DNA of 64,000 nucleotides, from the NCBI RefSeq assembly GCF_040796495.1, contig NZ_JBFNQN010000006.1, positions 124,001-188,000 on the forward strand. Direction: 5' to 3'. The stretch's first letter is position 1, and the number at the start of each line of letters is the position of its first letter. Below the pieces are notes generated by a model. The model did no database searches and was not told the DNA's origin. It saw only the letters and a program-made list of their open reading frames with translations. A program made the position numbers and the translations under genes. Below are positions 45,706 to 60,773 of the stretch, one piece after another. This DNA comes from Kineococcus endophyticus (GTDB lineage Bacteria > Actinomycetota > Actinomycetes > Actinomycetales > Kineococcaceae).

Positions 45706-46611
45706 TCACCCGCCGGACCCCTGGTCCGCCCGCAGGTCCGCCACCGCGGCCGACAGGAGGGAGGTGAGTTCCTCCTCGCGGGCCGGTCGGGAACTCTCGA
45801 CCGACACGCCCACGGCGAGGTCACCCACCCGGGCGGCTGCGGAGACCTGGTGCACCGGACCGCCCTGGTAGTCGCCCGTGAAGTCGGTCGTCGCGGCCCA
45901 CGTCTGGTCCGCGCCCTGGACACTCACGGGGAACGGGGTGACCGCCCAGCCGAACCGGCAGGCCGCCCCGTCGGACCCGAGGCCGTCGAACGCGGCTTGC
46001 GCAGTGCCCGTCGGCCACCGCGTCACCAGCAGGGTGACGCCCTCCTGGGCGTCCGCCGGGGCGTCGACCGCGTTCCACTGCCACTTCCGCGCCGAGACGG
46101 TGCTCGGGTGGACCGTCGTCAGGTCGCAGGTGACGCCGAGACCCGCCAGCGGCGAGTTCTCCCGCTGGTAGGGGCCGCTGTCCGAGATCAGCTCGACCCC
46201 CGTCGGCACGGTCGCCAGGGTCCGGGGCAGCGGGGGCGGGGGCTCCTGCGCGGCGGGATCGGCGGGGCCGCTCGACGTCGGGGTCGTCGGGGGCGTCGAG
46301 GGCGAGGCCGGACGTTCCGGGAGCCGGCTCTCCGAACCCGTGGGGGTCCCGACGGGGGTGGTCGACACGCTCCCGCCCGGCCACACCTGCAGGGTGAGGG
46401 GTACGGCGGCGACGAGCACGACCGCGGCGACCGCCGTGCGGACGCGGCGTCGGGATCGGCGGCGGCGCACGCGCGTCAGCGCGCCCGTGGCCAGCGACCG
46501 CTCGTCCACCGGGCCCGTACGCACCTCACTCTCGAACGCTGCGAGGAGGAGGTCGGTGACCTCGTCGCCGGGGGGCTCCGGGGCCCTGCTCCGGTCGTCG
46601 TGGTCAGGCAC
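45706..46611 (-). CDS. Single-span membrane protein, probable anti-sigma partner
   Basis: 301 residues. The cytoplasmic part (1-60) is followed by one membrane segment (VRTAVAAVVLVAAVPLTLQV), a Pro/Ser/Thr-rich linker (about 85-130) and an extracellular domain with WQWNAVDAPADAQEGVTLLV and AACRFGWAVTPFPVSV. It overlaps the ECF sigma gene by eight bases, the usual arrangement of sigma and anti-sigma genes in actinobacteria. No zinc-binding HxxxCxxC is seen, so inhibition, if any, uses another fold. Start GTG 46611. Confidence 0.7.
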   Translation of the reverse strand: MPDHDDRSRAPEPPGDEVTDLLLAAFESEVRTGPVDERSLATGALTRVRRRRSRRRVRTAVAAVVLVAAVPLTLQVWPGGSVSTTPVGTPTGSESRLPERPASPSTPPTTPTSSGPADPAAQEPPPPLPRTLATVPTGVELISDSGPYQRENSPLAGLGVTCDLTTVHPSTVSARKWQWNAVDAPADAQEGVTLLVTRWPTGTAQAAFDGLGSDGAACRFGWAVTPFPVSVQGADQTWAATTDFTGDYQGGPVHQVSAAARVGDLAVGVSVESSRPAREEELTSLLSAAVADLRADQGSGG

Positions 46612-47269
46612 GGGTGACCCCCTCCTCCGTGAGCAGTCGGCGCAAGGTCGCCAGGCCGCGGTGCGCGTTGCTGCGCACGGTGGCCGTGGAGCAGTCCATG
46701 AGGTCGGCGATCTCGCTGTCCGGCAACCCCTCGTAGAGCCGCAGGACGATGGCGATGCGCTGCTTGTCCGGCAGTCGGCGCAGCAGGGCGAGGCACCGCT
46801 GGCGTTCGGCGAAGGGACCCGAGCCGTCGTCGGTCCCCGGGTCGGGGAGGTCTGCCGGGTCCGCGGTGTGCTCGCGGCGCCACGGCCGCCGGCGCAGGGT
46901 CGTGACGGCGTTGACGACCATCCGGTTGAGGTAGGCCGAGGGGTCGTCGACGGTCCGGATGCGGCTCCACTTGTCCACGCAGGTCGCCAGGACGTCCTGC
47001 ACCACGTCCTCGGCCTGGTGCTCGTCGCGCAGGAGGACCCGGGCCAGCCGCACCAGCTGCGGCCCCTTCCAGGCGACCAGCGACTCCAGGTCCAGCGGGA
47101 CGTCCGCCCCGGCGGGACCCCGCCCCGCGGCGCGTGCGCGGGCGGTGCGGTCCCCTCCGGCCGCACCGCCCGTCGCAGCACCCGCCACCTCGCCCCACCA
47201 GCCCGTGGACCACCCCGAGGAGGAGGCAGGTGCGGCGCCGCGCTCGGCGCCCTCGCTGGGAGGTGTCAC
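46604..47269 (-). CDS. ECF RNA polymerase sigma factor (SigE-family type)
   Basis: 221 residues. Region 2 is LVRLARVLLRDEHQAEDVVQDVLATCVDKW...DPSAYLNRMVVNAV (about 70-120). Region 4 is LRRLPDKQRIAIVLRLYEGLPDSEIADLMDCSTATVRSNAHRGLATLRRLL (about 165-215). A Gly/Ala-rich N-terminal leader of about 55 residues is unusual, and the true start could be internal. It probably directs a small stress or envelope regulon with the membrane protein encoded next to it. It lies 65 bases downstream of the nitrilase-like gene on the same strand. Confidence 0.88.
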   Translation of the reverse strand: MTPPSEGAERGAAPASSSGWSTGWWGEVAGAATGGAAGGDRTARARAAGRGPAGADVPLDLESLVAWKGPQLVRLARVLLRDEHQAEDVVQDVLATCVDKWSRIRTVDDPSAYLNRMVVNAVTTLRRRPWRREHTADPADLPDPGTDDGSGPFAERQRCLALLRRLPDKQRIAIVLRLYEGLPDSEIADLMDCSTATVRSNAHRGLATLRRLLTEEGVTRA

Positions 47270-47334: not shown

Positions 47335-48201
47335 TCACGGCTCGGTCCGGTAGGTGTCGGGACGGCGCTCGGCCAGGTGGTGCAGCTTGCGGCGCGCCCG
47401 GTCGACGACGTGGTCGACGTCGACGGTCGCCTCGGCCAGACCACCCTTGGACCCGGTGCGCGCCAGGACGTCACCGCCGGGGCCGACGACCTTCGCCTGC
47501 CCGAGGAACCGCAGGTTCCCCTGGATGCCGGTCTGGTTCGAGGACACCCAGAGCACCTGGTTCTCCGCCGCGCGGGCGGAGTCGTAGAGGTCGAACAACC
47601 GGGACTGCCGGTCGTTGGGCAGCCGGGCGGCCCGGTCGGTGACGCTGGCGGGCCACGCGGAGAGGCAGGCGATGGTCCTCGCCCCGTCCAGGGCGAGGGA
47701 GCGGCTCGCCTCGGGGAACGTCTTGTCGTAGTCGATGAGCAGGCCCAGGCGCCCGACAGGGGTGTCGAAGGCGGTGAAGGAGTCACCGGCCGACAGCACC
47801 TCGGCTTCGCCGGCCGGCTGGTGGACCTTGCGGTGCCGCCCCAGCACCCCGTCACCGGTGACGCAGACCGCCGCGCTAAACCAGCACTGCCGACCGTGCA
47901 CGACCGCCACCTCGGTGTACCCCAGGCACACCGTCACCGGCCCCGCCGCGCGGGCGACCGCGGCGATCTCCTCGCAGCCCTCCTCCACGGCCGGGGGGGT
48001 GCCGCCGGTGTGCGGGTCGTCGAGGTCGGACAGGTACCCGCCCAGCGTCCCGTGGGGCAGGACCAGCAGGTCGACCCCGCTGCGCCGCGCTCCGGAGACG
48101 ACGGCCAGCGCCTTCTCGACCCCGCGTCCCACGTCGCGCCCGAAGTGCGCGGCCGCCGCCGCGACGCGGACGGAGCGGGAGTCCTCAGAGGTCGTGGTCA
48201 T
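47335..48201 (-). CDS. Nitrilase-fold pseudoenzyme lacking catalytic Glu and Cys
   Basis: 288 residues, clearly paralogous to the nitrilase at 52385-53284 (HFGRD, LGGYL, RHRKVHQP, AFDTPVGRLGL, GPGGDVLA). In the active family the triad is Glu-Lys-Cys. Here the Glu position reads LPHGTLGGY (His50), the Lys is kept (Lys125) and the Cys position reads LIDYDKTFPE (Asp157). The frame is intact, and the rest is well conserved, so this is not simple decay. It may bind a substrate, form mixed oligomers with the active nitrilase or have a changed reaction. ATG 48201; it overlaps the AMP-ligase gene by 17 bases. Confidence 0.85.
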   Translation of the reverse strand: MTTTSEDSRSVRVAAAAAHFGRDVGRGVEKALAVVSGARRSGVDLLVLPHGTLGGYLSDLDDPHTGGTPPAVEEGCEEIAAVARAAGPVTVCLGYTEVAVVHGRQCWFSAAVCVTGDGVLGRHRKVHQPAGEAEVLSAGDSFTAFDTPVGRLGLLIDYDKTFPEASRSLALDGARTIACLSAWPASVTDRAARLPNDRQSRLFDLYDSARAAENQVLWVSSNQTGIQGNLRFLGQAKVVGPGGDVLARTGSKGGLAEATVDVDHVVDRARRKLHHLAERRPDTYRTEP

Positions 48202-49636
48202 CGCAGGTGATCCTCCCGGACGGGGACGGCTGGGGACGCCAGCGGCTGCGCTGGACCTTGCCGGCCTCGTCGCGCAGCGGCTCGTCCACGAACCTCCACG
48301 CCACCGGTCTGGCCGGCGGGTCCAACCGCTCGGCGCACCAGCCGGCCAGCGCGTCCCGAGCGCCCTCGACCGGCGTTCCGCCGTGCAGGTCGACGACGGC
48401 GTGCACCCCGGGGACGGGGCCCGCCACGGCCACCGCCGACCGCACGTGCGGGTGTTCCTCCAGCACGGTCTCGACGTCGGCGGGAGCGATGCGGGAGGTG
48501 CCGACGGTGACGAGGTCGGCGAGGCGGTCACCGATGAAGAGGTACCCGTCGGCGTCGAGCCATCCGCTGTCGCCCAGGGTGTCCCACCCGTCGCGGACCG
48601 ACTTCCGTGCGCCGACGTAGCTGTAGGTGGGGTGGTCACGGCGCATGAGGACCTCGCCGACCTCTCCGGGCGCGCACTCGCTGAGGTCCGGGCGCACGAC
48701 GCGGAAGCTCGACCCCGGCAGGGCCCGGCCCACGGTTCCCGGCCGGGCCGTCCAGTCGTGCCCGTCGGTGAAGGCGAGTCCCTGGGACTCGGTGCCCGCG
48801 TAGAGCTCGTGGACCCGGTCCGGGCCGAGCCAGTCGATCCACGCCCGTTTCAGCCACGGTGCGCACCTCGCCCCCAGGTGCAGGACGGCCGTGAGCGAGG
48901 AGACGTCGGTGCGCGCCCGGTCCGGGTGCCGCCACACGGCGTGCATCATCGACGGGACGAGGACCCCCCAGGTGACGCTGTGCTGCGTCACCGTCCGCAA
49001 CCACTCGCCGGCGTCGAACCGGGGCAGGACGACGAGCTCGTGGCCGGTCATGAGGCCCCGCGCCGCGTAGACGAAGGGGGCGGCGTGGGTCAGCGGGCCC
49101 GCTACTAGCTGCACGGCCGACCGCGGGACGAAGGGGGCGACGCTTCCCCGGGGGTCGAAGCGGGCGGGAGCGGCTGCCCGGACGACCTTCGGTCGGCCCG
49201 TGCTGCCCGAGGACGTGGGGGCCTTCCAGCAGCTCGCGGCCAGGTCCGGCAGGGGTGTCGCCGGCGGTCCGTCCGGGGGGCCGGGAACGTCCGCGACCCG
49301 GTCGAGCACGACGGCGGGTCGACCGGCGGCGAGCACCGTGGCGCGATCGGCGGCGTCCATCCGCGGGGACAGCGGTTGCGGGGTCGCACCCGCCTTCCAC
49401 GCCGCGGCGAACGCGACGACGGTCTCGCAGCTGTTCGGCAGCGCGACCGCGACGAGGTCGTCGACCTGGACGCCCTGCGCGAGCCAGCGGCGGGCGAGGT
49501 CGTCGCTCCACTCGTCCAGCCCACGGCGGGTCAGGACGCGTCCGGCGCAGCGGACGGCGCCGGCGTCGGGATCGCGCCGCGCCCACCAGCGCAGTGCGGC
49601 GCCGATCGTCGGCGTCGTCTCCACGGGGCCGGTCAC
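48185..49636 (-). CDS. AMP-forming acyl/aryl ligase (ANL superfamily)
   Basis: 483 residues. SSGSTGRPKVVRA is the P-loop-like A3 motif. YAGTESQGLAF (A5), GWDTLGDSGWLDADGYLFIGDR (A7/A8) and RDEAGKVQRSRW (catalytic Lys) are all present, so the enzyme should activate a carboxylate with ATP. It may pass the acyl group to CoA or an amine. It is coupled by GTGA to the glycosyltransferase gene and overlaps the pseudo-nitrilase gene. It is not one of the core Nit1 families that I know, so it may tailor the cluster's product. Confidence 0.87.
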   Translation of the reverse strand: MTGPVETTPTIGAALRWWARRDPDAGAVRCAGRVLTRRGLDEWSDDLARRWLAQGVQVDDLVAVALPNSCETVVAFAAAWKAGATPQPLSPRMDAADRATVLAAGRPAVVLDRVADVPGPPDGPPATPLPDLAASCWKAPTSSGSTGRPKVVRAAAPARFDPRGSVAPFVPRSAVQLVAGPLTHAAPFVYAARGLMTGHELVVLPRFDAGEWLRTVTQHSVTWGVLVPSMMHAVWRHPDRARTDVSSLTAVLHLGARCAPWLKRAWIDWLGPDRVHELYAGTESQGLAFTDGHDWTARPGTVGRALPGSSFRVVRPDLSECAPGEVGEVLMRRDHPTYSYVGARKSVRDGWDTLGDSGWLDADGYLFIGDRLADLVTVGTSRIAPADVETVLEEHPHVRSAVAVAGPVPGVHAVVDLHGGTPVEGARDALAGWCAERLDPPARPVAWRFVDEPLRDEAGKVQRSRWRPQPSPSGRITCDDHDL

Positions 49637-50745
49637 AGGGCCGGCACCAGCCGCCGGTAGAGCCGCAGGTGCGCCTGCGCCGCGGCGTCCCAGGTGTGGG
49701 CGGCCGCCAGGTCGGTCCCCACCCGTCGGCGTTCGCGCTGCCCGGGACCGTCGGGGTCGGTCACCGCCGCGTGCAGCGCCGAGGCGATCGCGGGGATGTC
49801 GTCGGCGAAGGCGGCCGCGCCGGCGAAGACCTCGCGCAGCACCGGCAGGTCCCGGGTCACGAGCGGGACGCCCGCGGCCAGGGCCTCCATGGCCGCGAGG
49901 CCGAAACCCTCCTTGGTGGACACGAACCCCATGGCGGACGCGCCGGCGACGAGCGAAGGCAGGTCGTCCTGCGCGACGGGCCCCAGGACGACCGGGGCGA
50001 CGCGCAGGTCGCGGGCCAGCCGGTCGAACTCCGTCCGGTAGTCGCGGTAGTCGAACAACGTCTCCCCACCGGCGACGACGAGGGAGACGTCGGGCAGGTC
50101 GCGGCGCAGCAGCGCGACGGCACGCAGGAGGTCGGTGCTGCCCTTGCGCGGTTCGATGCCGCCGACGGCCAGGACGTACCGCCCGAACCGTTCCCGCCAC
50201 CGCACGCGCCGCGCCCGCGCGGAGGGTGCGTCGGAACCCGCTGCGGTGAACGGTGCGGCGTCGACCCCGTTCGGGATGACGACGGGGTCGAGGCCCCAGC
50301 CGGCGCGCACCTCGGCGGCCACGGCCTGCGACACGCAGACGTGGGCGAACGGTTCGACGATCGCCCGCTCGTGGCAGGCCGCCAGTTCCGGCGTCGTGAA
50401 CGTGTCGAGGTGGTGGACGGTGCGCACGCACCGGCCGACGGCGTTGGCGCTGATGCAGTCCTGGGCGTGCACGACGTCGTAGCCGGCCGCGTCGAAACCC
50501 CGTCGCAGCACGTCGATCGACCGCAGGATCCGCGCACCCACCGTCTCGCCCTCCTGCGCGGCGAACTCCACGACGCGGACGTCGACGCGGGGGTCCACGG
50601 GCCGGAAGAACGTCTGGTCGCCGCCGCGGCCCAGCGTCCACACCGACACCTGCGCCCCGGCCTCGACGAGCGCCTCGGCGAGGGCGAGGGTGTGGACGAC
50701 CCCGCCGCGGGGTTTGGTGGAGTACGTGGTGAGGGCGATGCGCAT
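49633..50745 (-). CDS. Family-4-type glycosyltransferase (MSMEG_0565-like)
   Basis: 370 residues. RIALTTYSTKPRGGVVHTLALAEAL is the start of the MSMEG_0565 group. The GT-B donor half has AVGGIEPRKGSTDLLRA, VLGPVAQDDLPSLVAGASAMGFVSTKEGFGLAAMEALAAGVPLV, which includes the E-x7-E donor motif. It would move a sugar from a nucleotide sugar to an unknown acceptor. Its presence in nitrogen-starvation clusters is typical. ATG 50745, one base after the flavoprotein stop. Confidence 0.9.
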   Translation of the reverse strand: MRIALTTYSTKPRGGVVHTLALAEALVEAGAQVSVWTLGRGGDQTFFRPVDPRVDVRVVEFAAQEGETVGARILRSIDVLRRGFDAAGYDVVHAQDCISANAVGRCVRTVHHLDTFTTPELAACHERAIVEPFAHVCVSQAVAAEVRAGWGLDPVVIPNGVDAAPFTAAGSDAPSARARRVRWRERFGRYVLAVGGIEPRKGSTDLLRAVALLRRDLPDVSLVVAGGETLFDYRDYRTEFDRLARDLRVAPVVLGPVAQDDLPSLVAGASAMGFVSTKEGFGLAAMEALAAGVPLVTRDLPVLREVFAGAAAFADDIPAIASALHAAVTDPDGPGQRERRRVGTDLAAAHTWDAAAQAHLRLYRRLVPAL

Positions 50746-50746
50746 G

Positions 50747-52084
50747 TCAGCCGACGCCGACGGTCCGGTGCTCGTGGTCCTGGTCCTGGTCGTGGTGGTG
50801 GTCGTGCTGGAGCGGGAGTTCCGCGACGGGCGGTGCACCGGTGATGCGGTCGGCCAGGAACTCCGCGTCCCGCGCCACCCCGGCGAAGCGTCCCGAACCC
50901 CACGTGTGCATCCAGGGCAGACCGAGGAAGAACAGGCCGGGGGTGCCCGTGACCCCGCGCGTCTGGCGCGGGCGGCCCCGGCCGTCGAACACGCCGACCT
51001 CGATCCAGCGGTGGTCGGCGCGGTAGCCGACGCTCCACACGACCGACGTGACGCCGGCCGCTGCCAGGTCGAGTTCCGTCGCCTCCCCCTCCGGGCGCCA
51101 CACGGGGGTGTAGCGCTCCTCGGCGGGCGCATCGATCCCCCGCGCCGCGATCCACCGGTCGATGCCGTCCTTGATGGACTCGGCGACCGCGTCGGCGTGG
51201 TCGAGCGCCGCGCCCAGCGTCGGGGTGAACCGGGCCACGCCGTCGCGGACGTCCACGAGGCGGCCGTGCAGGCCCATGCCCTCGCGGGCGAAGGCGCGCA
51301 GGTCGATGTCGCGCCCGCCGTCGCGGCCCGTCATGTAGTGGTTCGTCTTCTCCTGCGCGGCAGCCCCTCCGGGGACCTCGGCCGCGGTGACGTCGTAGGT
51401 GCCCATGTCCTCGAGCCAGGCGATGCAGTCCCGGCCGCGGTAGCGACGGGCGCAGCGCGGTGCGTTGCCGACGGCCAGGTGGACCCGACGGCCGGCCAGG
51501 TGCAGGTCCTCGGCGATCTGCGCCCCCGACTGCCCCGACCCGACCACGAGGACCGCCCCGGCGGGCAGCTGGTCGGGACCGCGGTAGGCGGAGGAGTGCA
51601 GTTGCGTGACGTCCGCGGGGAGCCGCTCGGCGGCCGCGGGGACGACGGGCGTGTGGTACCCGCCCGTCGCGACGACGACGTGGTCGGCGGTGAAGCGTCC
51701 GGCGGTCGTGTCGAGCGAGAACCGGTGCTCACCCTCCTGCCGCAGCGACGTGACCGCCACCCCCTCGCGCACCGGGGCACCGAAGGACCGGGCGTACTCC
51801 GTGACGAACCGGTGCACCTCGTCGCGGGGCATGAAACCGTCGGGGTCGGTCCCGCCGAACTCGCCCGAGTAGGACCACCCCGGCAGGCGGCACTGGAAGT
51901 TCGGGGTGACGAGCGTGAACGCGTCCCACCGTCCGTCCCGCCACTCGTGGGCTGTGCGGTCGCGTTCGAGCAGGACGTGGTCGACGCCGCGGGCCCTGAG
52001 GTGCCAGCTCAGGGACAGACCGGCCTGCCCGGCGCCCACGACGACGACCGCGTGGTGCTCGGGGGTGGTTCCGGTGGCGTTCAC
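50747..52084 (-). CDS. Flavin-dependent oxidoreductase (MSMEG_0569-like)
   Basis: 445 residues. [30 protein letters not shown] is the FAD Rossmann motif, and [29 protein letters not shown] is the NADPH motif, as in group B monooxygenases. [16 protein letters not shown] and [18 protein letters not shown] fit the MSMEG_0569 family. The C-terminus carries the run [13 protein letters not shown], a possible metal-binding tail. It probably oxygenates the pathway intermediate. GTGA coupling (52081-52084) links it to the small protein upstream. Confidence 0.9.
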
Positions 52085-52383
52085 GGGGTGGCTCCGGGGG
52101 TGGGTGGCAGGGGCGGGGTGAGGTCCAGGACGTGGACGGGGGCCGTCGGTGCGAACCCGGCGGCGCGCACGGTGAGGTCCTGGAGCTGCGCGACGGCTGC
52201 GCTGCAGCCCATCCCGTAGCGGGCGCGGACGCGGTCGCTCGCCTCGGTGAGGGCTGTGCGGCAGCGGGTCGTGAACTCCTCCACGGAGTAGCTCTCACCC
52301 GCGCTGAGGTGGTCGTGGACGACGAGGGAGGGGGAGTAGCACTGCTGGACGGTGTCGTCGGGCCAGCGGACGGTGAAGGTCAT
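52081..52383 (-). CDS. MSMEG_0570-family nitrogen starvation response protein
   Basis: 100 residues from ATG 52383. MTFTVRWPDDTVQQCYSPS, YSVEEFTTRCRTALTEASDRVRARYGMGCSAAVAQL follows the family pattern closely. The protein has no known catalytic site. Members always occur in Nit1-type clusters, so a chaperone or carrier role is possible. It lies one base after the nitrilase stop codon. Confidence 0.85.
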   Translation of the reverse strand: MTFTVRWPDDTVQQCYSPSLVVHDHLSAGESYSVEEFTTRCRTALTEASDRVRARYGMGCSAAVAQLQDLTVRAAGFAPTAPVHVLDLTPPLPPTPGATP

Positions 52384-52384
52384 C

Positions 52385-53284
52385 TCAGGCAAGAGCGGGC
52401 ACCTCCTGCCGGAGCGCGTGGGTGTTGGGGGCGACGACCGCGCCGTAGGCGTCGGGCCGACGGTCGCGCAGGGCGAACATCGCGCGCCGGGCGGCCGCGA
52501 GTTCGGCGTCCACGTCCACGTCGGCGATCGCGACGCCCGCCTCCACCCCCGTGTCGGCCAGCACCTCCCCACCGGGGCCGACGACCTTGGCGCTGCCGAC
52601 GTAGCGCAGCGAGCCGAACGTCCCGGCCTGGTTCGCGGCCACCCAGACGACCTGGTTCTCCAGGGCCCGGGCCTGGTCGTAGAGGTCGAACCGCTTCTTC
52701 CAGCGGTCCTGTGCGAGGTCACCGGACGCGGCGGTGCGCGCACCGGGCCACGCGGAGATGCTGACGACCACCTCCGCCCCGTCGAGGGCTGCCGCGCGGG
52801 CAGCCTCGGGGAACGCCTTGTCGTAGCAGATCTGGAGACCGATCCGGCCGACCGGGGTGTCGAAGGCGTCGAACGTCGACCCGGCGGCGTACGAGAGGTT
52901 CTCGCCCAGGGGTTGGTGGACCTTGCGGTGGTGGCCGAGGACGCCGTCGCCGGTGAGGGCGACGGCGGTGTTGTAGAGGTCCGCGCCGCCGTCCTCGCAG
53001 AAGCCCAGGACGACGACGGTGTCGCCGGCGAGCTGCTGCACCCGGCGCAGTTCAGGACCGTCGAGCCGCAGCGGCGGTGGTCCGGAGCGGTCGCGGCGCG
53101 AGGCGGCGGTGCCGCGGTCCTGCGCCGACCCCAGGGACGACAGGTACCCGCCGAGGCAGGCCTCGGGGAACGCGACGAGGTCGGCTCCGTCCGCCTGCCG
53201 CAGCACGCGTTCGATGGTCGCGTAGGCGTGCTCGAGGTCGCGGCCGAAGTTCTCCGCGACCGCGGCGAGTCTGGTGGTGGTCAT
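52385..53284 (-). CDS. Nitrilase of the Nit6803 type
   Basis: 299 residues. The complete triad is visible: Glu41 (AFPEACLGGYL), Lys121 (HHRKVHQPLGE) and Cys153 (LQICYDKAFPE). Such enzymes hydrolyse a nitrile to the acid and ammonia, which fits a nitrogen-scavenging cluster. It is coupled by ATGA to the GNAT-AIR synthase fusion. A paralogue without Glu and Cys is encoded 4 kb downstream. Confidence 0.92.
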   Translation of the reverse strand: MTTTRLAAVAENFGRDLEHAYATIERVLRQADGADLVAFPEACLGGYLSSLGSAQDRGTAASRRDRSGPPPLRLDGPELRRVQQLAGDTVVVLGFCEDGGADLYNTAVALTGDGVLGHHRKVHQPLGENLSYAAGSTFDAFDTPVGRIGLQICYDKAFPEAARAAALDGAEVVVSISAWPGARTAASGDLAQDRWKKRFDLYDQARALENQVVWVAANQAGTFGSLRYVGSAKVVGPGGEVLADTGVEAGVAIADVDVDAELAAARRAMFALRDRRPDAYGAVVAPNTHALRQEVPALA

Positions 53285-54699
53285 GCGGTTCCCATCCCCG
53301 TGACGGGGCCCGGAAGGGCCGTGGTCACGTCTCCGTCGGGCCAGCGCAGCGACACCCCGCGGGTTCCTGCGTGCAACCGGCCGATCGTGGTCGTGGTGGC
53401 GGGCCCCGCGGGTGCGGGGGGCCGGTCCGGGGCGTCGGCGGTCACCATGCCGAACCCCGGGAAGCAGGTGAACCAGTCGCCGACGGTGGTGCCCGCCGGC
53501 CGGGGGACGGCGGTGACGTCGACCTCCGCGCCGACCCCGCTGGCCTCGGCGAGCATCCCGACGGTGCCGAGCAGGCCGGCCATGCTGACGTCCTTGGCCG
53601 CCGCCGGGCGGGTCCGGGTCACGACGGACCCCATGACCCGCAGGTCCTCCGCACGCCGCCAGGACGTGGAGTCCCACTGGGTGCCGGTGTACCCGGGCCG
53701 CCAACCCCCCTGGAGGTCGACGGTCAGCGAGAGCGCGTGCCCGGCCCGCCCGCCGCCCGCGGGGACGGGGTCGGCCGTGCGGCCCAGGGCGGTCACCGAC
53801 AGGGCCGCCGGCACCCCGAACTGGGTGTGCCCGCCGAGGACGGGGACGCCCCAGGCCCGGGAGGCCTCCCTGAGCCCTTCGACCACCGCCCGGACGTGCT
53901 CGGTCGTCGGCGCGCCGACGGCGTCGAGCAACCCGACGGGGGCCGCTCCCATGGCGGCGAGGTCGTTGAGGTTGACGAGCACCGCGCACCACCCGGCCCA
54001 CCGCGGGTCGCGGTCGACGAGGGAGGGCAGGACCGCGTCGCAGGCGGCGACGACGTCCGTGCCCGGCACGGGCGACCCGTCGTCCCCGAGGAACCCCGCG
54101 GGGGTGCTCACGAGGCCGTCGAGGACGCCGGCGAGTGCGGACTTCGTGGCCCGGGCCAGCCGTTCCACGCGGTCCACCGGGTAGCGCACGAGGGCGTGCG
54201 GCGTGCCCTGCACCACCACGTCGCGCACGTGCTCCCAGCCGAGACGGCGGAACAGGACCGCGCTGCGCCGCTGGACCGTGGCGTCGAACCGCAGCGCCCC
54301 GAGGTCCTCGGCGTGGGCGCAGGCGGCTCGCACCAGCGCCGATCCGACGCCGCCCAGGGTCCGCGCCCCGGGGGTGACGGCGAGCCTGCTGCCCCGCCAC
54401 CAGCCGACGTCGGGTTCGTGGCACGGGGCCAGGCGCACCCCGCCGACGACGGAACCGTCCGCGGTCCGGGCGACGAGGACCCGACGGCGGGGGTCGTCGT
54501 CCGCCGCGTCCCTGTCGTCGCCGGTGAACAACCCCTGCTCGGCGACGAAGACGTCCCGACGGAGCTCGCGGTAGGCCTGTTCGGCGGCGGTGTCGGCGAC
54601 CTCGACGTGGAACGCCGAGCGGGGACGGGGCACCCCGGCCAGGACGGGCACGTCCAGCGGCGCGAGCAGGCTGTGCGGGACGGTCAGGTCCGCGTCCAC
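53281..54699 (-). CDS. GNAT acetyltransferase / AIR synthase-like fusion (Sll0786 + Sll0787 types)
   Basis: 472 residues. The first part (about 1-150) is a GNAT domain with FHVEVADTAAEQAYRELRRDVFVAEQGLF and GVGSALVRAACAHAEDLG. The second (about 170-472) is an AIR synthase/PurM-like ATP-binding fold with VNLNDLAAMGAAPVGLLDAVG, GHTQFGVPAALSVTALG and KDVSMAGLLGTVGMLAEASGVGAEV. In cyanobacterial clusters these are separate genes. PurM folds phosphorylate amides or carboxylates. GTG 54699 starts two bases after the radical SAM stop. Confidence 0.88.
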   Translation of the reverse strand: MDADLTVPHSLLAPLDVPVLAGVPRPRSAFHVEVADTAAEQAYRELRRDVFVAEQGLFTGDDRDAADDDPRRRVLVARTADGSVVGGVRLAPCHEPDVGWWRGSRLAVTPGARTLGGVGSALVRAACAHAEDLGALRFDATVQRRSAVLFRRLGWEHVRDVVVQGTPHALVRYPVDRVERLARATKSALAGVLDGLVSTPAGFLGDDGSPVPGTDVVAACDAVLPSLVDRDPRWAGWCAVLVNLNDLAAMGAAPVGLLDAVGAPTTEHVRAVVEGLREASRAWGVPVLGGHTQFGVPAALSVTALGRTADPVPAGGGRAGHALSLTVDLQGGWRPGYTGTQWDSTSWRRAEDLRVMGSVVTRTRPAAAKDVSMAGLLGTVGMLAEASGVGAEVDVTAVPRPAGTTVGDWFTCFPGFGMVTADAPDRPPAPAGPATTTTIGRLHAGTRGVSLRWPDGDVTTALPGPVTGMGTA

Positions 54700-54701
54700 G
54701 G

Positions 54702-55793
54702 TCAGGCCCCGAGGTTCTGCAGGACCGAGCACGCCCCGCACGCGGCGCACCCCGCCATCTGGTCCGCGCCGCGCATCCCGGCCTCGCGCAACGCCTCCGC
54801 GACGCGTCGGGAGACGTCCTCGAGGACGGCGGGGTCCGGGGCCGTGGCGTGGTCGACGTCCACCGCGAGGGTTCCCGCCAGCGGGCGGAACGGCACGACG
54901 AACGGGTACACGCCCAGCTCGGCGAGGCGGCGGGCCCCCTCGACGAGGTCGTCGGGGTCCTCGCCGAGACCGACGAGGAGGTACGTCGAGACCTGGTTGC
55001 GCCCGAACACGCGGACGGCCTCGGTCCAGGCGGCCCAGTAGTCGGCCAGCGGGACCGTCGACTTCCCCGGCATCCAGCGCCGGCGGACGGCGTCGTCGAG
55101 GGACTCGACGTGGAGGCCGACCGAACTCGCCCCGGCCTCCTGGAGTTCGGTGAGGGTGGCGAGGTCGGCCGGGGGTTCGCACTGGACCTGCACCGGCAGC
55201 CCGGGAACGGCGTCCCGGATGGCCCGCACGCAGCGGGCCAGGTGGCGGGCTCCGCGGTCGGGGGCCGTCGACGTCCCCGTCGTGAGCACGACGTGCCGGA
55301 TCCCGTCGAGGTCGACCGCTGCCCGCGTGACCTCGGCGAGGACGGCCGGCGTCTTGACCGCGATCGTGGCGCCGGAGTTCAAGGACTCCTCGATCGCGCA
55401 GAACCGGCAGCGGTCCTCCGGCGAGTACCGCGAGCAGGTCTGGACCACCGTGGTGGCCAGGACGTCCCGGCCGTGCAACCGCGCGACCTTCTCGTAAGGG
55501 GTTCCGTCCGCGGTGCTGAGGTCGTAGAACCGGGGCCGTCGCACCGCCTCGACGTCGACCCCGAGGTCGGTGACCGCCCCGGTCTGCTCCAGCAGCAGCC
55601 GGCCGTCCCGCACCAGGTAGGGGCTGTCCTGTCGCAACGGGACGGCCGTGGCGAGGCCGTCGAGGACGACGTGCCCGTCGTCGGTGGGTCCGGCCCCGCC
55701 CCGGCGCTGCACCGGAGCGGCCAGCCGCACCCCGCGGATCGCGACGTCGACCCGGGTCGCCACCGCCCCCGCGGGACGCGCTTCGCAGGTCAC
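54702..55793 (-). CDS. Radical SAM enzyme (MSMEG_0568-like)
   Basis: 363 residues. The iron-sulfur motif is Cys120-x8-Cys129-x2-Cys132 (TCSRYSPEDRCRFCAIE), longer than the classic CxxxCxxC but usual for this group. HVVLTTGTSTAPDRG and EAGASSVGLHVESLDD belong to the barrel, and a second cysteine cluster GCAACGACS ends the protein, perhaps holding an auxiliary cluster. It would start radical chemistry on the pathway substrate. GTG 55793, seven bases after the Sll0783-like gene. Confidence 0.9.
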   Translation of the reverse strand: MTCEARPAGAVATRVDVAIRGVRLAAPVQRRGGAGPTDDGHVVLDGLATAVPLRQDSPYLVRDGRLLLEQTGAVTDLGVDVEAVRRPRFYDLSTADGTPYEKVARLHGRDVLATTVVQTCSRYSPEDRCRFCAIEESLNSGATIAVKTPAVLAEVTRAAVDLDGIRHVVLTTGTSTAPDRGARHLARCVRAIRDAVPGLPVQVQCEPPADLATLTELQEAGASSVGLHVESLDDAVRRRWMPGKSTVPLADYWAAWTEAVRVFGRNQVSTYLLVGLGEDPDDLVEGARRLAELGVYPFVVPFRPLAGTLAVDVDHATAPDPAVLEDVSRRVAEALREAGMRGADQMAGCAACGACSVLQNLGA

Positions 55794-55800
55794 GGCGTCC

Positions 55801-56364
55801 TCACACCATGTAGGTCGAGTTGATGATGGCGCCCTTGCGGGCGTAGTGGATGACCGCGTCCTGCACGTCGAGCGGGTGGCACGGGACGACGCCCTCGATG
55901 AGGTCCTCCTCGCGGTTGCCGTGCAGGGCCAGGCCGAACCGGCAGCAGTAGACCGTCCCGCCCTCCTTGATGAAGGTCTCCAGGGCCCCGTTGATGTTCT
56001 GCTCGCCGGGGAAGCCCGAGTCGCCGACCGTGGGGAAACCGCGGGTGGCGATGCAGTTCATCGCCCCGGGTCCGTAGAAGTAGATGGCGGACTCGAAACC
56101 CTTGCGCAGGGCGCGGGTGGCCTGCAGGACGGCGACGAAGCTCACCGAGGACTCGTGGGCGATGCCGTGGACGAGCGTGAAGTAGGTCTCCCCGCCCTCG
56201 GCCTGGTAGTCGGGGAACACCTTGGTCGAACCGTAGAGGTTCTCCCCCTTGGGCTTGCTGGGGTGGGGGATCTCGGTGAGGGACTTCGCGATGTTCGCCT
56301 TGATCTGCTCCTCCAACGCGGTGTCGGTGTCGGTGCCGGTGGTGGTCGTGGTCGTCGTGGTCAT
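55801..56364 (-). CDS. Sll0783/MSMEG_0572-family nitrogen starvation response protein
   Basis: 187 residues with an odd N-terminal run of eight threonines (GTC/GTG-like repeat in the DNA at 56325-56360). The body, TYFTLVHGIAHESSVSFVAVLQATRALRKGFESAIYFYGPGAMN, GEQNINGALETFIKEGGTVYCCRFGLALHGNREEDLIEGVVP, has a DsrE-like look with paired cysteines. It is the hallmark gene of Nit1-type clusters. ATG 56364 follows GAGGAGAAACC. The amidohydrolase gene precedes it by 16 bases. Confidence 0.9.
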   Translation of the reverse strand: MTTTTTTTTGTDTDTALEEQIKANIAKSLTEIPHPSKPKGENLYGSTKVFPDYQAEGGETYFTLVHGIAHESSVSFVAVLQATRALRKGFESAIYFYGPGAMNCIATRGFPTVGDSGFPGEQNINGALETFIKEGGTVYCCRFGLALHGNREEDLIEGVVPCHPLDVQDAVIHYARKGAIINSTYMV

Positions 56365-57224: not shown

Positions 57225-57240
57225 GTTTCGAGGTGGTTAC
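57225..57240 (-). promoter_or_regulatory. GlnR-like nitrogen-control box
   Basis: On the minus strand, GTAAC-CACCTC-GAAAC matches the known actinobacterial GlnR half-pair GTnAC-n6-GAAAC at all fixed positions. A weaker pair, GTGCG-N6-GAAAC, lies about three helical turns upstream (57258-57273). The box begins 23 bases upstream of the first gene of the Nit1-type run, which supports induction under nitrogen limitation. Confidence 0.55.
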
Positions 57241-57343: not shown

Positions 57344-58300
57344 TCAGAGCCCTAGGCGGTGCTTCGCGTACCAGCCGTTGAGCATGACGGTCGAGGCCGG
57401 GTTGGGGGTCTGCTCGCTCTCGAAGACGACCCAGCCGTCGTAGCCGTTCCCGCGCAGCACGTCCAGCACAGCGGGGGCGTCGACGAGCCCGTCCCGGGTG
57501 CCGACCTCGTGGAACCAGCGCTCGACCTCGCGGTCCCCGCCGGCGGTGAGGAAGGCGTGCTCGGCGTGCGGGCGCAGCCGTTCCCCGGCGGTGTCGACGA
57601 ACCGGGTGTCCTTGAGCTGCAGGTGGTCGACGCGGTCGACGTGGCGGCGCACGACGTCCGCGGCGTCGAGGCCGGCCAGGGTCAGCTCCCCGGTGTCCAC
57701 CGTGAGCCCGACGAGCGCCGGGTCCGTGGCGGCCAGCAGCCGCGCCAGGACGTCGGCGTCGGCCGCGGCGGACAGCACGTCGGCGTGCAGGGTGGTGCGG
57801 ACCCCGTGCTCGGCGGTCGCGGCGCCGAGCGCGTCGAAGCAGGCCGCGGCCGTGTCGACGGCGTCGTCGTCCACCGTTCCGACCTGCCAGGCGGGGGGCA
57901 GGGCGCGCACGACGAGCCGGGAACCGCCGAGTTCGGCGAGGGCGGCGGCGAAGGGCCTGGCCCACTCCACGATCGCGGCGTGCTGCCCGCGGTCGAGGAC
58001 GGACCGCCCGTGCGAGAGCTCCTCGTCGACGGGTTCCCCGGGGTCGACGGACCAGCTGCTGACGCCGTCCAGGCCGACGTCGGCGAGCACCTTGGCGAAG
58101 GTGGACAGGGAACCGTAGGTGGCCTCGATGGACGCGGGGCGCCCGAGGGGGTCCCAGCGGCCCGTGCCCCCGCGCAGTTCGACGGCGCGGAACCCGGCGG
58201 CCCGCACCGTCTTGAAGGCGCGCAGGTGCGCGTCGGGACGGCAGAAGTCGTCGAAGTTCGGCTTCCACTGGTTCACCGCGTAGGCACGGCGGATGCTCAC
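57344..58300 (-). CDS. Xylose-isomerase-like TIM barrel protein (second)
   Basis: 318 residues. FKTVRAAGFRAVELRGGTGRWDPLGRPASIEATYGS, TLHADVLSAA, VGLTVDTGELTLAG, VDHLQLKDTRF and WVVFESEQTPNP give the AP-endonuclease-2/sugar isomerase barrel with metal ligands E, D, H and E. Such proteins isomerise sugars or, in glycoside-3-oxidation routes, cleave or hydrate 3-keto glycosides. It is coupled by GTGA to its paralogue and is last in the operon. Start GTG 58300. Confidence 0.87.
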   Translation of the reverse strand: MSIRRAYAVNQWKPNFDDFCRPDAHLRAFKTVRAAGFRAVELRGGTGRWDPLGRPASIEATYGSLSTFAKVLADVGLDGVSSWSVDPGEPVDEELSHGRSVLDRGQHAAIVEWARPFAAALAELGGSRLVVRALPPAWQVGTVDDDAVDTAAACFDALGAATAEHGVRTTLHADVLSAAADADVLARLLAATDPALVGLTVDTGELTLAGLDAADVVRRHVDRVDHLQLKDTRFVDTAGERLRPHAEHAFLTAGGDREVERWFHEVGTRDGLVDAPAVLDVLRGNGYDGWVVFESEQTPNPASTVMLNGWYAKHRLGL

Positions 58301-59232
58301 GACGCCACCTTCCCCAGGACCTGCTGCGCGTACCACATGGACAGGGCCGTGCTCTCGGCGTAGTCGCCGCCGATGTTCGCCTTGTCGTGCTCGACGGTGA
58401 CCCAGCCGTCGTAGCCGTGGGCGTCCATCGCCCGCACGAGGCGCTGGAAGTCGACCAGACCGCCCTCGACGCCCATCTCGTGGAACCAGCGGTCGGTCTG
58501 CGGTGCCATGAGTTCGGCGTCGGGACGGTGCTGGTAGGCGCTGGTCGTGTCCTGCTGCACGGTGTCCTTGAAGTGGAACCCGCTGACACGGTCGTGCAGC
58601 CGTTCGTACAGCTCGACGGGGTCGACCCCCGCGATGCAGTGCTGCGCGGTGTCGCAGAAGAAGCTGACGTACCGCGGGTCGGTGAGGTCGTAGAACCGGA
58701 CGATGTCGTCGAACGTCCGGATGGCGCAGAAGAACTCGTGGTGTCCCGTGGTCCTCACCCCGAACTCGGTGAGGGACATCTCCCCGACGCGCGTCCAGCA
58801 CTCCGCGGCGGCCTTGATCTTGTCGTCGGTGACGGGCGCGGTGGTGGTCCACAGGCTCGCCGGCATGACGATGAGGTTCTCGATCTGCAGGTCCGACCAC
58901 ATCCCGAGCATCCGGCGGGTGCTCTCGACGATCTCGTCGTGCGTCTCCCGCACGTGCGCGTCGGCGACGCGGGGGTCGTACATGATGCCCCGGAACAGGT
59001 TGACGATCTTCGCGATGCCGTGGTCCTGCAGGTACTCCTGGTACTTCGCGATGGACCCGAACATCCCGCTCAGGCCGAAGACCTGGAAGTCGAACATGTC
59101 CAGGCCCTCGAAGCCGACGGCCGAGATCTGCTTCACGAAGTCGTCCATGAGCCGCCGGTTGGCGTACTGCGTCTGCGGACCGCGTGGGGTGTCCACGCGC
59201 CAGTGGTCCATGTAGGCCCAGCGGTACGTCAC
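58297..59232 (-). CDS. Xylose-isomerase-like TIM barrel protein (first)
   Basis: 311 residues. ISAVGFEGLDMFDFQVFG, GVRTTGHHEFFCAI, YVSFFCDTAQHCIAG, VSGFHFKDTVQQDT and GWVTVEHDKAN show the same barrel with a likely E-D-H-E metal site. It differs much from the next gene, so the two probably carry out different steps. GTGA overlaps join it to the GMC oxidoreductase upstream and to the second barrel downstream. The context suggests action on an oxidised glycoside. Confidence 0.87.
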   Translation of the reverse strand: MTYRWAYMDHWRVDTPRGPQTQYANRRLMDDFVKQISAVGFEGLDMFDFQVFGLSGMFGSIAKYQEYLQDHGIAKIVNLFRGIMYDPRVADAHVRETHDEIVESTRRMLGMWSDLQIENLIVMPASLWTTTAPVTDDKIKAAAECWTRVGEMSLTEFGVRTTGHHEFFCAIRTFDDIVRFYDLTDPRYVSFFCDTAQHCIAGVDPVELYERLHDRVSGFHFKDTVQQDTTSAYQHRPDAELMAPQTDRWFHEMGVEGGLVDFQRLVRAMDAHGYDGWVTVEHDKANIGGDYAESTALSMWYAQQVLGKVAS

Positions 59233-60773
59233 GGGGTGTCCTTCCCATCGGGGGTGGACGTCGCGAGCGTCTTCGCGACGTGGCGGGCTCCGCCGACGGC
59301 CAGGGCCACGGCGGTGAGGGTGGGGTTGCAGGCGGTCTCGGTGGGGATGACACCGTTCCCGGCGACGAACAGGCCCGGGACGTCCCAGACCTCGCCGTGG
59401 ACGTCGCACACGCTCGTGCCGTCGTCCTCCCGGCCCATCCGCGTGGTGCCCTGGTAGTGCAGGGAACTGCCCGCGGGCAGGCGGATCGGCCGTTCGTCGA
59501 TGACGGTTCCGAGCGCCCGGCCCGCGGTCGTGATGGCCTCCTCGGCCGCGGCGATCCGCTGCTCGTCCAGCGCGGTGAGCGTGTGGTGCACGCTCGGTGC
59601 GGGCATCCCGTAGCCGTCGACCGCGGTCTCGGAGAACTCCACCCGGTCCTGCGGCCGGACGTCCTTGGCGGTGAACCACCCGAGCCCGACGTAGGCGCCG
59701 GGCCGGTCGGCGGGCAGGTCCGGGCGCGGCACGGGGGAGGCGTCCATCTGCATGACCTGGCCGTGGAACGGGTGACGGTCGTCGTCGAAGGGGACCCAGC
59801 TCACGCCGCTGCCCCTGCTGACGACGGTCGGGTCGTCCGCCGCGGGGACGGGGACCCCCGCGAGCAGGTCGTCGGCCAGCCGGACCGCGAGGAGGACCTG
59901 CGGCTGGTCGTTGAGGTACCGGCCGAGGGCCGTGGGGCGGATCCCCGAGGCGAACAGCAGTTGCGGAGTGCGGAGTGCGTCGGCGGCGGCGACGACCACC
60001 CGGGCGCCGACGTCGGCGACCGTGTCGTCCCGCAGGTCGCGCACGCTGACCCCCTGCACCGCACCCGACGGCGAGCGCCGGACGCGGGTGACGAGCGTCT
60101 CGGGCAGGAGCGCGACCCCGGTGCGCAGCACGTCGCCGAACACGACGGACGGGCCCGACCAGTGCAGACCCCCGTTGGAGTCGCGCCGAACCGCGAGCGG
60201 CATCGGCTGCACGCGTCGGTCGGCCGGTCGGTCGCCGTCGAGGGCGGAGCCCAGGACGCGGCGGACGTCGCCGGCCAGGGGGGCGTTCGCCAGGGCCTGC
60301 GCGCTGACCCCGAGGAGGCGTTCACCCTCGTCGAGCAGCGCGTCGAGGTCGTCGACGAAGCCGATCCGTTCGCTGCCGCCCGGACGCGGGCAGGCGCAGG
60401 TCCAGTGCGCGCCCATCCCGCCGACGTTGCTCGACATGGCCCCCACGGGCAGGCCGGTACCGCCGGCGGCGAACCCCTCGCCCACGAGGAAGGTGCCGGC
60501 CCGGCCGCGCCGTCCGTCCACCGTGGCCGCCGGGTCGGCGGCGCCGAGGTCGGCCTCAGGGCCCTCCGACGCGCGCTGGGCGCGTCGCCTGGCCTCGGGG
60601 TCGGCGATGTTCTTGACGTGGTCCCCGGGCGGATCGGACAGGACCGGCCCGACCTCGAACACCGCGATGCGCAGGTCCGGGCGCAGGTCGTGCAGCGTGC
60701 GCGCCCACGCGGCGCCCGCGGGGCCGCTGCCCACGACCGCGACGTCGACGGCGGCGGGGTACCGACCGTTCAC
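59229..60773 (-). CDS. GMC-family oxidoreductase (pyranose/glycoside 3-oxidase type)
   Basis: 514 residues. VAVVGSGPAGAAWARTLHD is the FAD motif, GAMSSNVGGMGAHWTCACPRP is the flavin-attachment and access loop of the pyranose-oxidase group, and SLHYQGTTRMGREDDGTSV with AGNGVIPTETACNPTLTAVALA carry the catalytic His/Asn pair. It would oxidise a sugar hydroxyl, likely C2 or C3, giving a keto-glycoside. No signal peptide is present. It lies between GH3 and the TIM barrels with GTGA coupling on both sides. Confidence 0.9.
   Translation of the reverse strand: MNGRYPAAVDVAVVGSGPAGAAWARTLHDLRPDLRIAVFEVGPVLSDPPGDHVKNIADPEARRRAQRASEGPEADLGAADPAATVDGRRGRAGTFLVGEGFAAGGTGLPVGAMSSNVGGMGAHWTCACPRPGGSERIGFVDDLDALLDEGERLLGVSAQALANAPLAGDVRRVLGSALDGDRPADRRVQPMPLAVRRDSNGGLHWSGPSVVFGDVLRTGVALLPETLVTRVRRSPSGAVQGVSVRDLRDDTVADVGARVVVAAADALRTPQLLFASGIRPTALGRYLNDQPQVLLAVRLADDLLAGVPVPAADDPTVVSRGSGVSWVPFDDDRHPFHGQVMQMDASPVPRPDLPADRPGAYVGLGWFTAKDVRPQDRVEFSETAVDGYGMPAPSVHHTLTALDEQRIAAAEEAITTAGRALGTVIDERPIRLPAGSSLHYQGTTRMGREDDGTSVCDVHGEVWDVPGLFVAGNGVIPTETACNPTLTAVALAVGGARHVAKTLATSTPDGKDTP

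Follow-up and report, generated by a model that had tools for sequence, protein, structure and literature searches.

A cysteine-less carbon-nitrogen hydrolase homologue, apparently of single origin, in an actinobacterial Nit1C-type (gpr) cluster

The last gene of a nitrogen starvation-related operon in Kineococcus endophyticus encodes a carbon-nitrogen hydrolase homologue that appears to be old, of single origin and swapped in its active site. The Glu-Lys-Glu-Cys tetrad of the superfamily has become x-Lys-Glu-Asp, which would put a carboxylate in place of the thiol nucleophile and leaves the first glutamate, the general base, free to drift. It is likely that this Cys-less protein has been retained for a function of a pocket that lacks cysteine, be it binding or new chemistry. 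That the function is binding without hydrolysis is the mechanism we tentatively put forward, at a confidence just short of even. The cluster was already known, and so was the gene, under the name of an aliphatic amidase; what is new is its placement in an active-site-swapped clade of the superfamily. Nit1C/gpr genes are strongly induced in Mycobacterium smegmatis during nitrogen starvation, and an amidase label on a protein without the cysteine misleads pathway models.

The window is the whole 64,000-nucleotide stretch that was analysed (contig NZ_JBFNQN010000006.1, positions 124,001 to 188,000 of the forward strand), and all coordinates are window positions. Numbers preceded by G, L, H or f are our own handles. 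Papers are cited by PMC number.

The operon and its surroundings

Ten consecutive minus-strand genes form one run (57202 to 47335) in which neighbours are -17 to +16 bases apart; both nitrilase-type paralogues belong to it, as an earlier reading of the sequence alone (hereafter the sequence-only reading) had noted. The run opens with an amidohydrolase (PF04909, 56381..57202), followed by a nitrogen starvation response protein of the MSMEG_0572/Sll0783 family (55801..56364, TIGR04044), an MSMEG_0568 family radical SAM protein (54702..55793, TIGR04043) and an MSMEG_0567-type fusion of GNAT and AIR-synthase-like parts (53281..54705, TIGR04045 and TIGR04050), the start codon of which is uncertain (54699 or 54705). 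Then come the active-type paralogue in the MSMEG_0571 position (52385..53284), an MSMEG_0570 family protein (52081..52383, TIGR04042), an MSMEG_0569 family flavin-dependent oxidoreductase (50747..52084, TIGR04046), an MSMEG_0565 family glycosyltransferase (49633..50745, TIGR04047) and an AMP-binding gene resembling acyl-CoA/acyl-AMP ligases (48185..49636), which overlaps the start of the Cys-less gene (47335..48201) by 17 bases. All the TIGR families named score over their cut-offs. The amidohydrolase is found in at least 27 and the AMP-binding gene in at least 14 of 80 related loci, both counts being lower bounds, with the loci cut at their ends. With the TIGR04043, TIGR04045 and TIGR04050 families and those of 0569, 0570, 0572 and 0565 in one run on one strand, this is the actinobacterial Nit1C-type (gpr, MSMEG_0565-0572) cluster, which occurs in numerous actinobacteria.

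A candidate GlnR-like box, GTAAC-n6-GAAAC (57225..57240, minus strand), stands 22 bases ahead of the GTG with which the first gene starts. The window has two copies of the strict form GTnAC-n6-GAAAC, where shuffles lead one to expect 0.16, but no excess of the looser mycobacterial form, with 10 copies for an expected 6.6. The consensus form was taken from PMC3662644. Because the candidate box precedes the first start of the operon, the Cys-less gene is probably transcribed in nitrogen starvation, like MSMEG_0566 of M. smegmatis, for which such transcription has been reported (PMC4222082, PMC4617892).

Several other features of the window may be recorded here. The second strict GlnR-like box, GTCACCCCGTCGAAAC, lies at 62481-62496 on the plus strand. 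Two xylose-isomerase-like TIM-barrel genes (57344-59250, minus strand), weakly IolE-like and below cut-off, are found directly upstream of the operon. At its other end, 65 bases downstream of the Cys-less gene, there is a SigE-family ECF sigma factor gene (46604-47269, minus strand), which at 140.7 falls just below the TIGR02983 cut-off of 141.55.

Residues at the catalytic positions

The Cys-less frame, translated from 47335-48201 on the minus strand, runs unbroken from ATG to TGA over 288 amino acids. It matches the Pfam CN_hydrolase family (PF00795) over residues 13-265 with 101.4 bits against a cut-off of 23.2 (6.8e-29). In a HMMER alignment to Pyrococcus 3ivz, counted by hand, His50 falls on Glu42, Lys125 on Lys113, Glu132 on Glu120 and Asp157 on Cys146. 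Codon 50, the first catalytic position and usually Glu, is CAC (48052..48054, minus strand) and codon 157, the nucleophile position and usually Cys, is GAC (47731..47733, minus strand), both coordinates being computed from the frame; codons 125 and 132 are AAG and GAA. The sequence-only reading had described an intact frame, a nitrilase body with Lys125 kept, His50 in place of the catalytic Glu and Asp157 in place of the catalytic Cys, all of which is borne out. It had made no mention of Glu132, the second glutamate and fourth tetrad residue, which is retained as well. The H-K-D combination is no sequencing slip, because a change from Cys to Asp takes two base changes and because Kineococcus rubinsiae (L001), independent of the window genome, shares it.

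A Cys-Glu-Glu-Lys tetrad is reported to be conserved across the superfamily (PMC6637149). Judged by descent and fold, that is by the CN_hydrolase match and the fold of the model described below, the Cys-less protein belongs to the carbon-nitrogen hydrolases. Judged by the tetrad it does not, with Lys and the second Glu retained, Cys turned into Asp and the first Glu replaced. The canonical catalytic residues are absent across a conserved family, and in this sense, which is one of sequence, the protein may be called a pseudoenzyme.

The active-type paralogue, a protein of 299 amino acids with a CN_hydrolase match of 6.1e-40, is 48 % identical to the Cys-less protein over a 295-column alignment. 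By Pfam match and alignment it carries Glu41-Lys121-Glu128-Cys153, three of which (Glu41, Lys121 and Cys153) had been correctly read before. The corresponding set of active-type sequences has E-K-E-C in 107 of 107 members (112 before identical rows were removed). The active-type paralogue of the window scores 34.5 bits against the 502.6 required for TIGR04048 (Nit6803/NitC), the Cys-less protein gives no match to this family at 0.001, and a TIGR04048 nitrilase over cut-off is found in none of 55 genomes (54 with the radical SAM gene, and G028). It has been proposed that the UGA of MSMEG_0571 encodes selenocysteine and is read through until the stop of MSMEG_0569 (PMC6039565). In the 75 loci among L001-L080 that carry both the active gene and an MSMEG_0570-type gene, the stop of the active gene is TGA in all 75, and in all 75 the MSMEG_0570-type gene behind it sits in a different frame.

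Orthologues and origin of the swap

Relatives were collected with a pattern-seeded search using six patterns, and the best 80 of 411 were retained. Together with the window copy, these 81 have Lys125 and Asp157 without exception, intact frames, and Asp (76), His (3) or Tyr (2) at position 50. One seed pattern was an octapeptide containing Asp157, so the count of 81 Asp could be biased, and the search was therefore repeated with the whole protein in the class and with a profile in the phylum. The whole-protein search of 394 class genomes gave 49 matches at 1e-50; 33 of these genomes carry the Cys-less protein and the other 16 have the Glu-Lys-Cys type alone. Lys125 and Asp157 are again present in 33 of 33, with Asp (24), Gly (7), His (1) or Gln (1) at position 50. 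The profile search of 396 phylum genomes gave 9 matches at 1e-45. Among them are eight copies from outside the class, of which L148 reads D-K-D-D, with Glu132 replaced by Asp in this far homologue, and the other seven read E-K-E-C.

Some genomes are shared between the samples (L035 and L160, for example), and removal of identical sequences reduced the Cys-less set from 124 to 108; one pair in each of the pooled sets (108 and 107) still differs in length alone. Asp157, Lys125 and Glu132 are invariant in all 108 pooled orthologues, at position 50 there are 95 Asp, 7 Gly, 3 His, 2 Tyr and 1 Gln, and neither Cys at 157 nor Glu at 50 occurs in any of the 108. Orthologues with Glu and Cys at these positions, which the sequence-only reading had named as grounds for giving it up, are thus absent. 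The alignment it had called for upholds Asp157 (108/108) and shows His50 to be lineage-specific: with only three occurrences (the window, K. rubinsiae L001 and Phycicoccus L010), His50 is ruled out as a functional residue. Two matches, L086 and L095, were flagged as crossing a stop; since their aligned open frames extend to about residue 285, these are taken as end stops. A relative of the Cys-less gene, 65-67 % identical to it, is also carried by large Rhodococcus plasmids of 0.5 to 1.4 Mb (H1-H4), and in the four records it is annotated three times as a carbon-nitrogen hydrolase family protein and once not at all.

A tree was built with columns 50 and 157 removed, from 84 rows (40 Cys-less and 44 Cys-bearing) that were left of 108 after the outgroup, two long rows (L151 and L159) and 21 chosen near-duplicates had been dropped. 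The 40 Cys-less rows make up one side of a single branch, with support of 93/96 and presence in 94 % of 200 bootstrap trees; L148, kept on a long branch, is less surely placed. One change is counted on this tree at position 157 and seven at position 50. It replaces an earlier quick tree, the root of which was not trusted owing to a very long outgroup. The direction from Cys to Asp is deduced from Cys being the nucleophile of the superfamily and not from a rooted tree. Read in this way, the sequences place the swap in a single old Cys-to-Asp event, fixed since.

Fold, fixed sites and the possibility of a new enzyme

The AlphaFold2 model of the Cys-less protein has a pLDDT of 91.3 and a pTM of 0.90 (pLDDT 88.3 for the active paralogue). 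Its top structural match is the Pyrococcus amidase 6ypa (Z 34.6, rmsd 2.7, 259 aligned), with rows within 1 tied, and amidases are matched at Z above 30.

Comparison of the 40 Cys-less with the 44 Cys-bearing rows of the tree brings out eleven sites (59, 63, 157, 161, 190, 199, 202, 212, 252, 273 and 278) fixed to letters that are rare in the Cys-bearing relatives, among them Thr161, Arg190, Gln199, Leu202, Ala212, Lys252 and Glu278. Gln199 may be ancestral, because Cys-bearing relatives from other classes share it. The fixed sites are suggestive of a remodelled pocket or interface; they may lie on the dimer face as well as in the pocket, the distinction between pocket and surface being judged from motif position alone.

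Such conservation is also what speaks for a neofunctionalised enzyme, in which Asp157, Lys125 and Glu132 would turn over another substrate of the Nit1C-type pathway, Asp157 being the nucleophile or general base. Not only these three residues but many of the motif residues around them are invariant, sites have been fixed to new letters, and the protein is better conserved overall than the active paralogue (mean pairwise identity of 74.1 % against 64.6 % in 76 common loci). However, the position of the usual general base drifts between Asp, Gly, His, Tyr and Gln, and we know of no natural member of the superfamily with an Asp nucleophile. A new enzyme is in our view rather unlikely, though it is the main rival to binding; if the protein were one, the nitrilase superfamily would have changed its nucleophile in nature, once from Cys to Asp and fixed across several actinobacterial families. 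Of the new reaction using His and Asp that the sequence-only reading had envisaged, the His part finds no support, 105 of 108 orthologues having another residue; Asp157 is invariant in them.

Company in genomes and the possibility of a mixed dimer

The sequence-only reading had also considered mixed oligomers. In such a mixed dimer the Cys-less subunit would be a non-catalytic partner that activates, stabilises or tunes the active paralogue. The distribution of the genes is at first sight favourable. The radical SAM gene is found in 54 of the 394 class genomes, and 32 of the 33 class genomes with the Cys-less protein also hold the active paralogue and the radical SAM gene; the active copy reads Glu-Lys-Cys in all 32, apart from the Glu of G224, which falls off the contig. 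In one group (L107-L111, L113 and L115-L117) the active and Cys-less genes are direct neighbours, perhaps as the remnant of a tandem duplication.

Against this, the 33rd genome, G028, has a Cys-less copy (L141:5342-6205, D-K-E-D) with no active paralogue, radical SAM, flavoprotein or GNAT-AIRS gene found in the genome and no other searched cluster gene within 10 kb around it. This orphan offers a natural test of stand-alone function. Conversely, the Cys-less protein is missing from 16 of the 48 genomes that have both the radical SAM gene and the active paralogue; 15 of the 16 bear the family code f26, and the other, G230, belongs to the same order as the window genome. The protein is thus not required everywhere, and the active enzyme can be found alone. 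Of the 80 named loci, which are the best of 411 relatives, all have the GNAT-AIRS gene, 79 the MSMEG_0565-type glycosyltransferase, 76 the active paralogue and 76 the radical SAM gene. Four loci lack the active paralogue, but their genomes hold it elsewhere. Two of the four were rejected as split loci on account of contig breaks, since L055 is a contig of 6.3 kb and L070 lies 550 bases from the end of one; L031 and L032 are clear splits, with the active gene at another place in the genome and the remaining cluster genes close to the Cys-less gene.

Partial mirror-tree values likewise withhold support, which is the only use made of them here, being small and confounded by linkage or shared transfer of neighbours. 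The Cys-less protein and the active paralogue give 0.05 in 69 loci, the lowest of seven partners, and 0.09 in 26 thinned loci, the third lowest. The Cys-less protein reaches 0.19-0.36 with the glycosyltransferase, radical SAM and 0572 proteins, and the active paralogue 0.60-0.64 with the flavoprotein. In addition, a pure scaffold would have no need of an invariant active site. The earlier argument that nitrilases form spirals concerns true nitrilases, those forming spirals having two insertions at the C surface (PMC4700190); the best structural matches of the Cys-less protein are amidases. Despite the co-occurrence and the tandem group, we consider a mixed dimer improbable.

Two further patterns of presence are recorded for completeness. 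Of the 48 genomes just mentioned, 31 have both the Cys-less protein and a flavoprotein over the TIGR04046 cut-off, 14 have neither, one (G022) has only the Cys-less protein and two (G038 and G230) have only the flavoprotein. This association was set aside as evidence, as the 14 double absences all belong to f26, one clade of the quick tree, and may be a single event; five of these 14 genomes have a lower-scoring flavoprotein elsewhere. The f26 clusters without the Cys-less protein and a TIGR04046-level flavoprotein are L120, L121, L123, L124, L127, L128, L131-L137 and L139. The MSMEG_0570 family, present in 17 of 55 genomes, shows no useful pattern with respect to the Cys-less protein.

Selection

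The median dN/dS (Nei-Gojobori) of the Cys-less protein in 1675 related pairs is 0.274; the active paralogue, which could be compared in 1592 of those pairs, has a median of 0.383. The absolute values are rough, with synonymous sites saturated in these GC-rich genomes. Among 35 comparable independent pairs the Cys-less value is below that of the active paralogue in 17, above it in 16 and equal in 2. These estimates indicate that the Cys-less protein is under purifying selection comparable to that on the active paralogue. Signs of relaxed selection, which would have told against the sequence-only reading, are not seen, dN/dS being far below 1. Its view that the paralogue was kept and is not decaying is well supported by these values and by the absence of Glu at 50 and Cys at 157 in 108 orthologues. 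A decaying duplicate, retained by chance or through its place in the operon, could account for the loss of two of the four catalytic residues but is scarcely credible in the face of a single change at 157, invariant residues, intact frames in 81 copies and dN/dS values of 0.01-0.48 in 36 independent pairs.

Proposed role

We propose, with the reserve stated at the outset, that the Cys-less protein binds without hydrolysing. It would fold and dimerise as its relatives do. Hydrolysis through a cysteine thioester, as practised by the superfamily, should be impossible for it because the cysteine is absent, and the usual general base would be dispensable, since position 50 drifts. The pocket is taken to be still in use because Lys125, Glu132 and Asp157 are invariant, eleven sites are fixed and the model is confidently amidase-like. 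A pocket formed by Lys125, Glu132 and Asp157 could hold a small metabolite of the pathway without cutting it, and the protein might then serve as a carrier, a sensor or a regulatory subunit in the nitrogen-starvation pathway. The lack of catalysis is deduced from the residues, and Asp157 might itself play the part of nucleophile or base. With one Cys-to-Asp swap that became fixed, and with Lys and Glu surviving, the protein lends itself to a clean test between binder, regulator and new enzyme, and the x-K-E-D pattern allows annotations to be corrected from sequence.

Comparison with known systems

A dead paralogue retained next to its active sister is found in the trypanosomatid deoxyhypusine synthase. 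There a complex of the two has been reported (PMC3663545), whereas for the Cys-less protein the indirect tests do not favour one. In the open-licence literature, as far as excerpts were available, no description of an inactive or pseudo-nitrilase paralogue of this kind was found.

The NitC/Nit6803 nitrilase of Nit1C clusters (Sll0784, TIGR04048) retains its own cysteine, and neither window paralogue reaches the cut-off of its family. The closest structural relative is the amidase/nitrilase PH0642 of Pyrococcus horikoshii (6ypa, 3ivz, 1j31), to which all four tetrad positions align: Glu42-Lys113-Glu120-Cys146 in PH0642 stand against His50-Lys125-Glu132-Asp157 in the Cys-less protein.

The known counterpart of the Cys-less gene is MSMEG_0566 of the M. 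smegmatis gpr operon (MSMEG_0565-0572), which occupies the same place in the same cluster. This correspondence is one of synteny, as 19 of the 80 loci share the M. smegmatis order 0572-0571-0570-0569-0568-0567-0566-0565, with the Cys-less protein at 0566; they come from Gordonia, Mycobacterium, Mycolicibacterium and one Nocardia, and two of them have an inserted AMP-binding gene. When nitrogen is short, GlnR induces the gpr operon, which confers resistance to peroxide, a phenotype that according to the authors could not be assigned to single genes (PMC6039565). MSMEG_0566 is named a (putative) aliphatic amidase in print (PMC6039565, PMC4222082, PMC4617892), and the available excerpts of the open-licence literature on the locus make no mention of a missing cysteine. 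Compared with the gpr operon of M. smegmatis, the window operon contains two additional genes, the amidohydrolase and the AMP-binding ligase.
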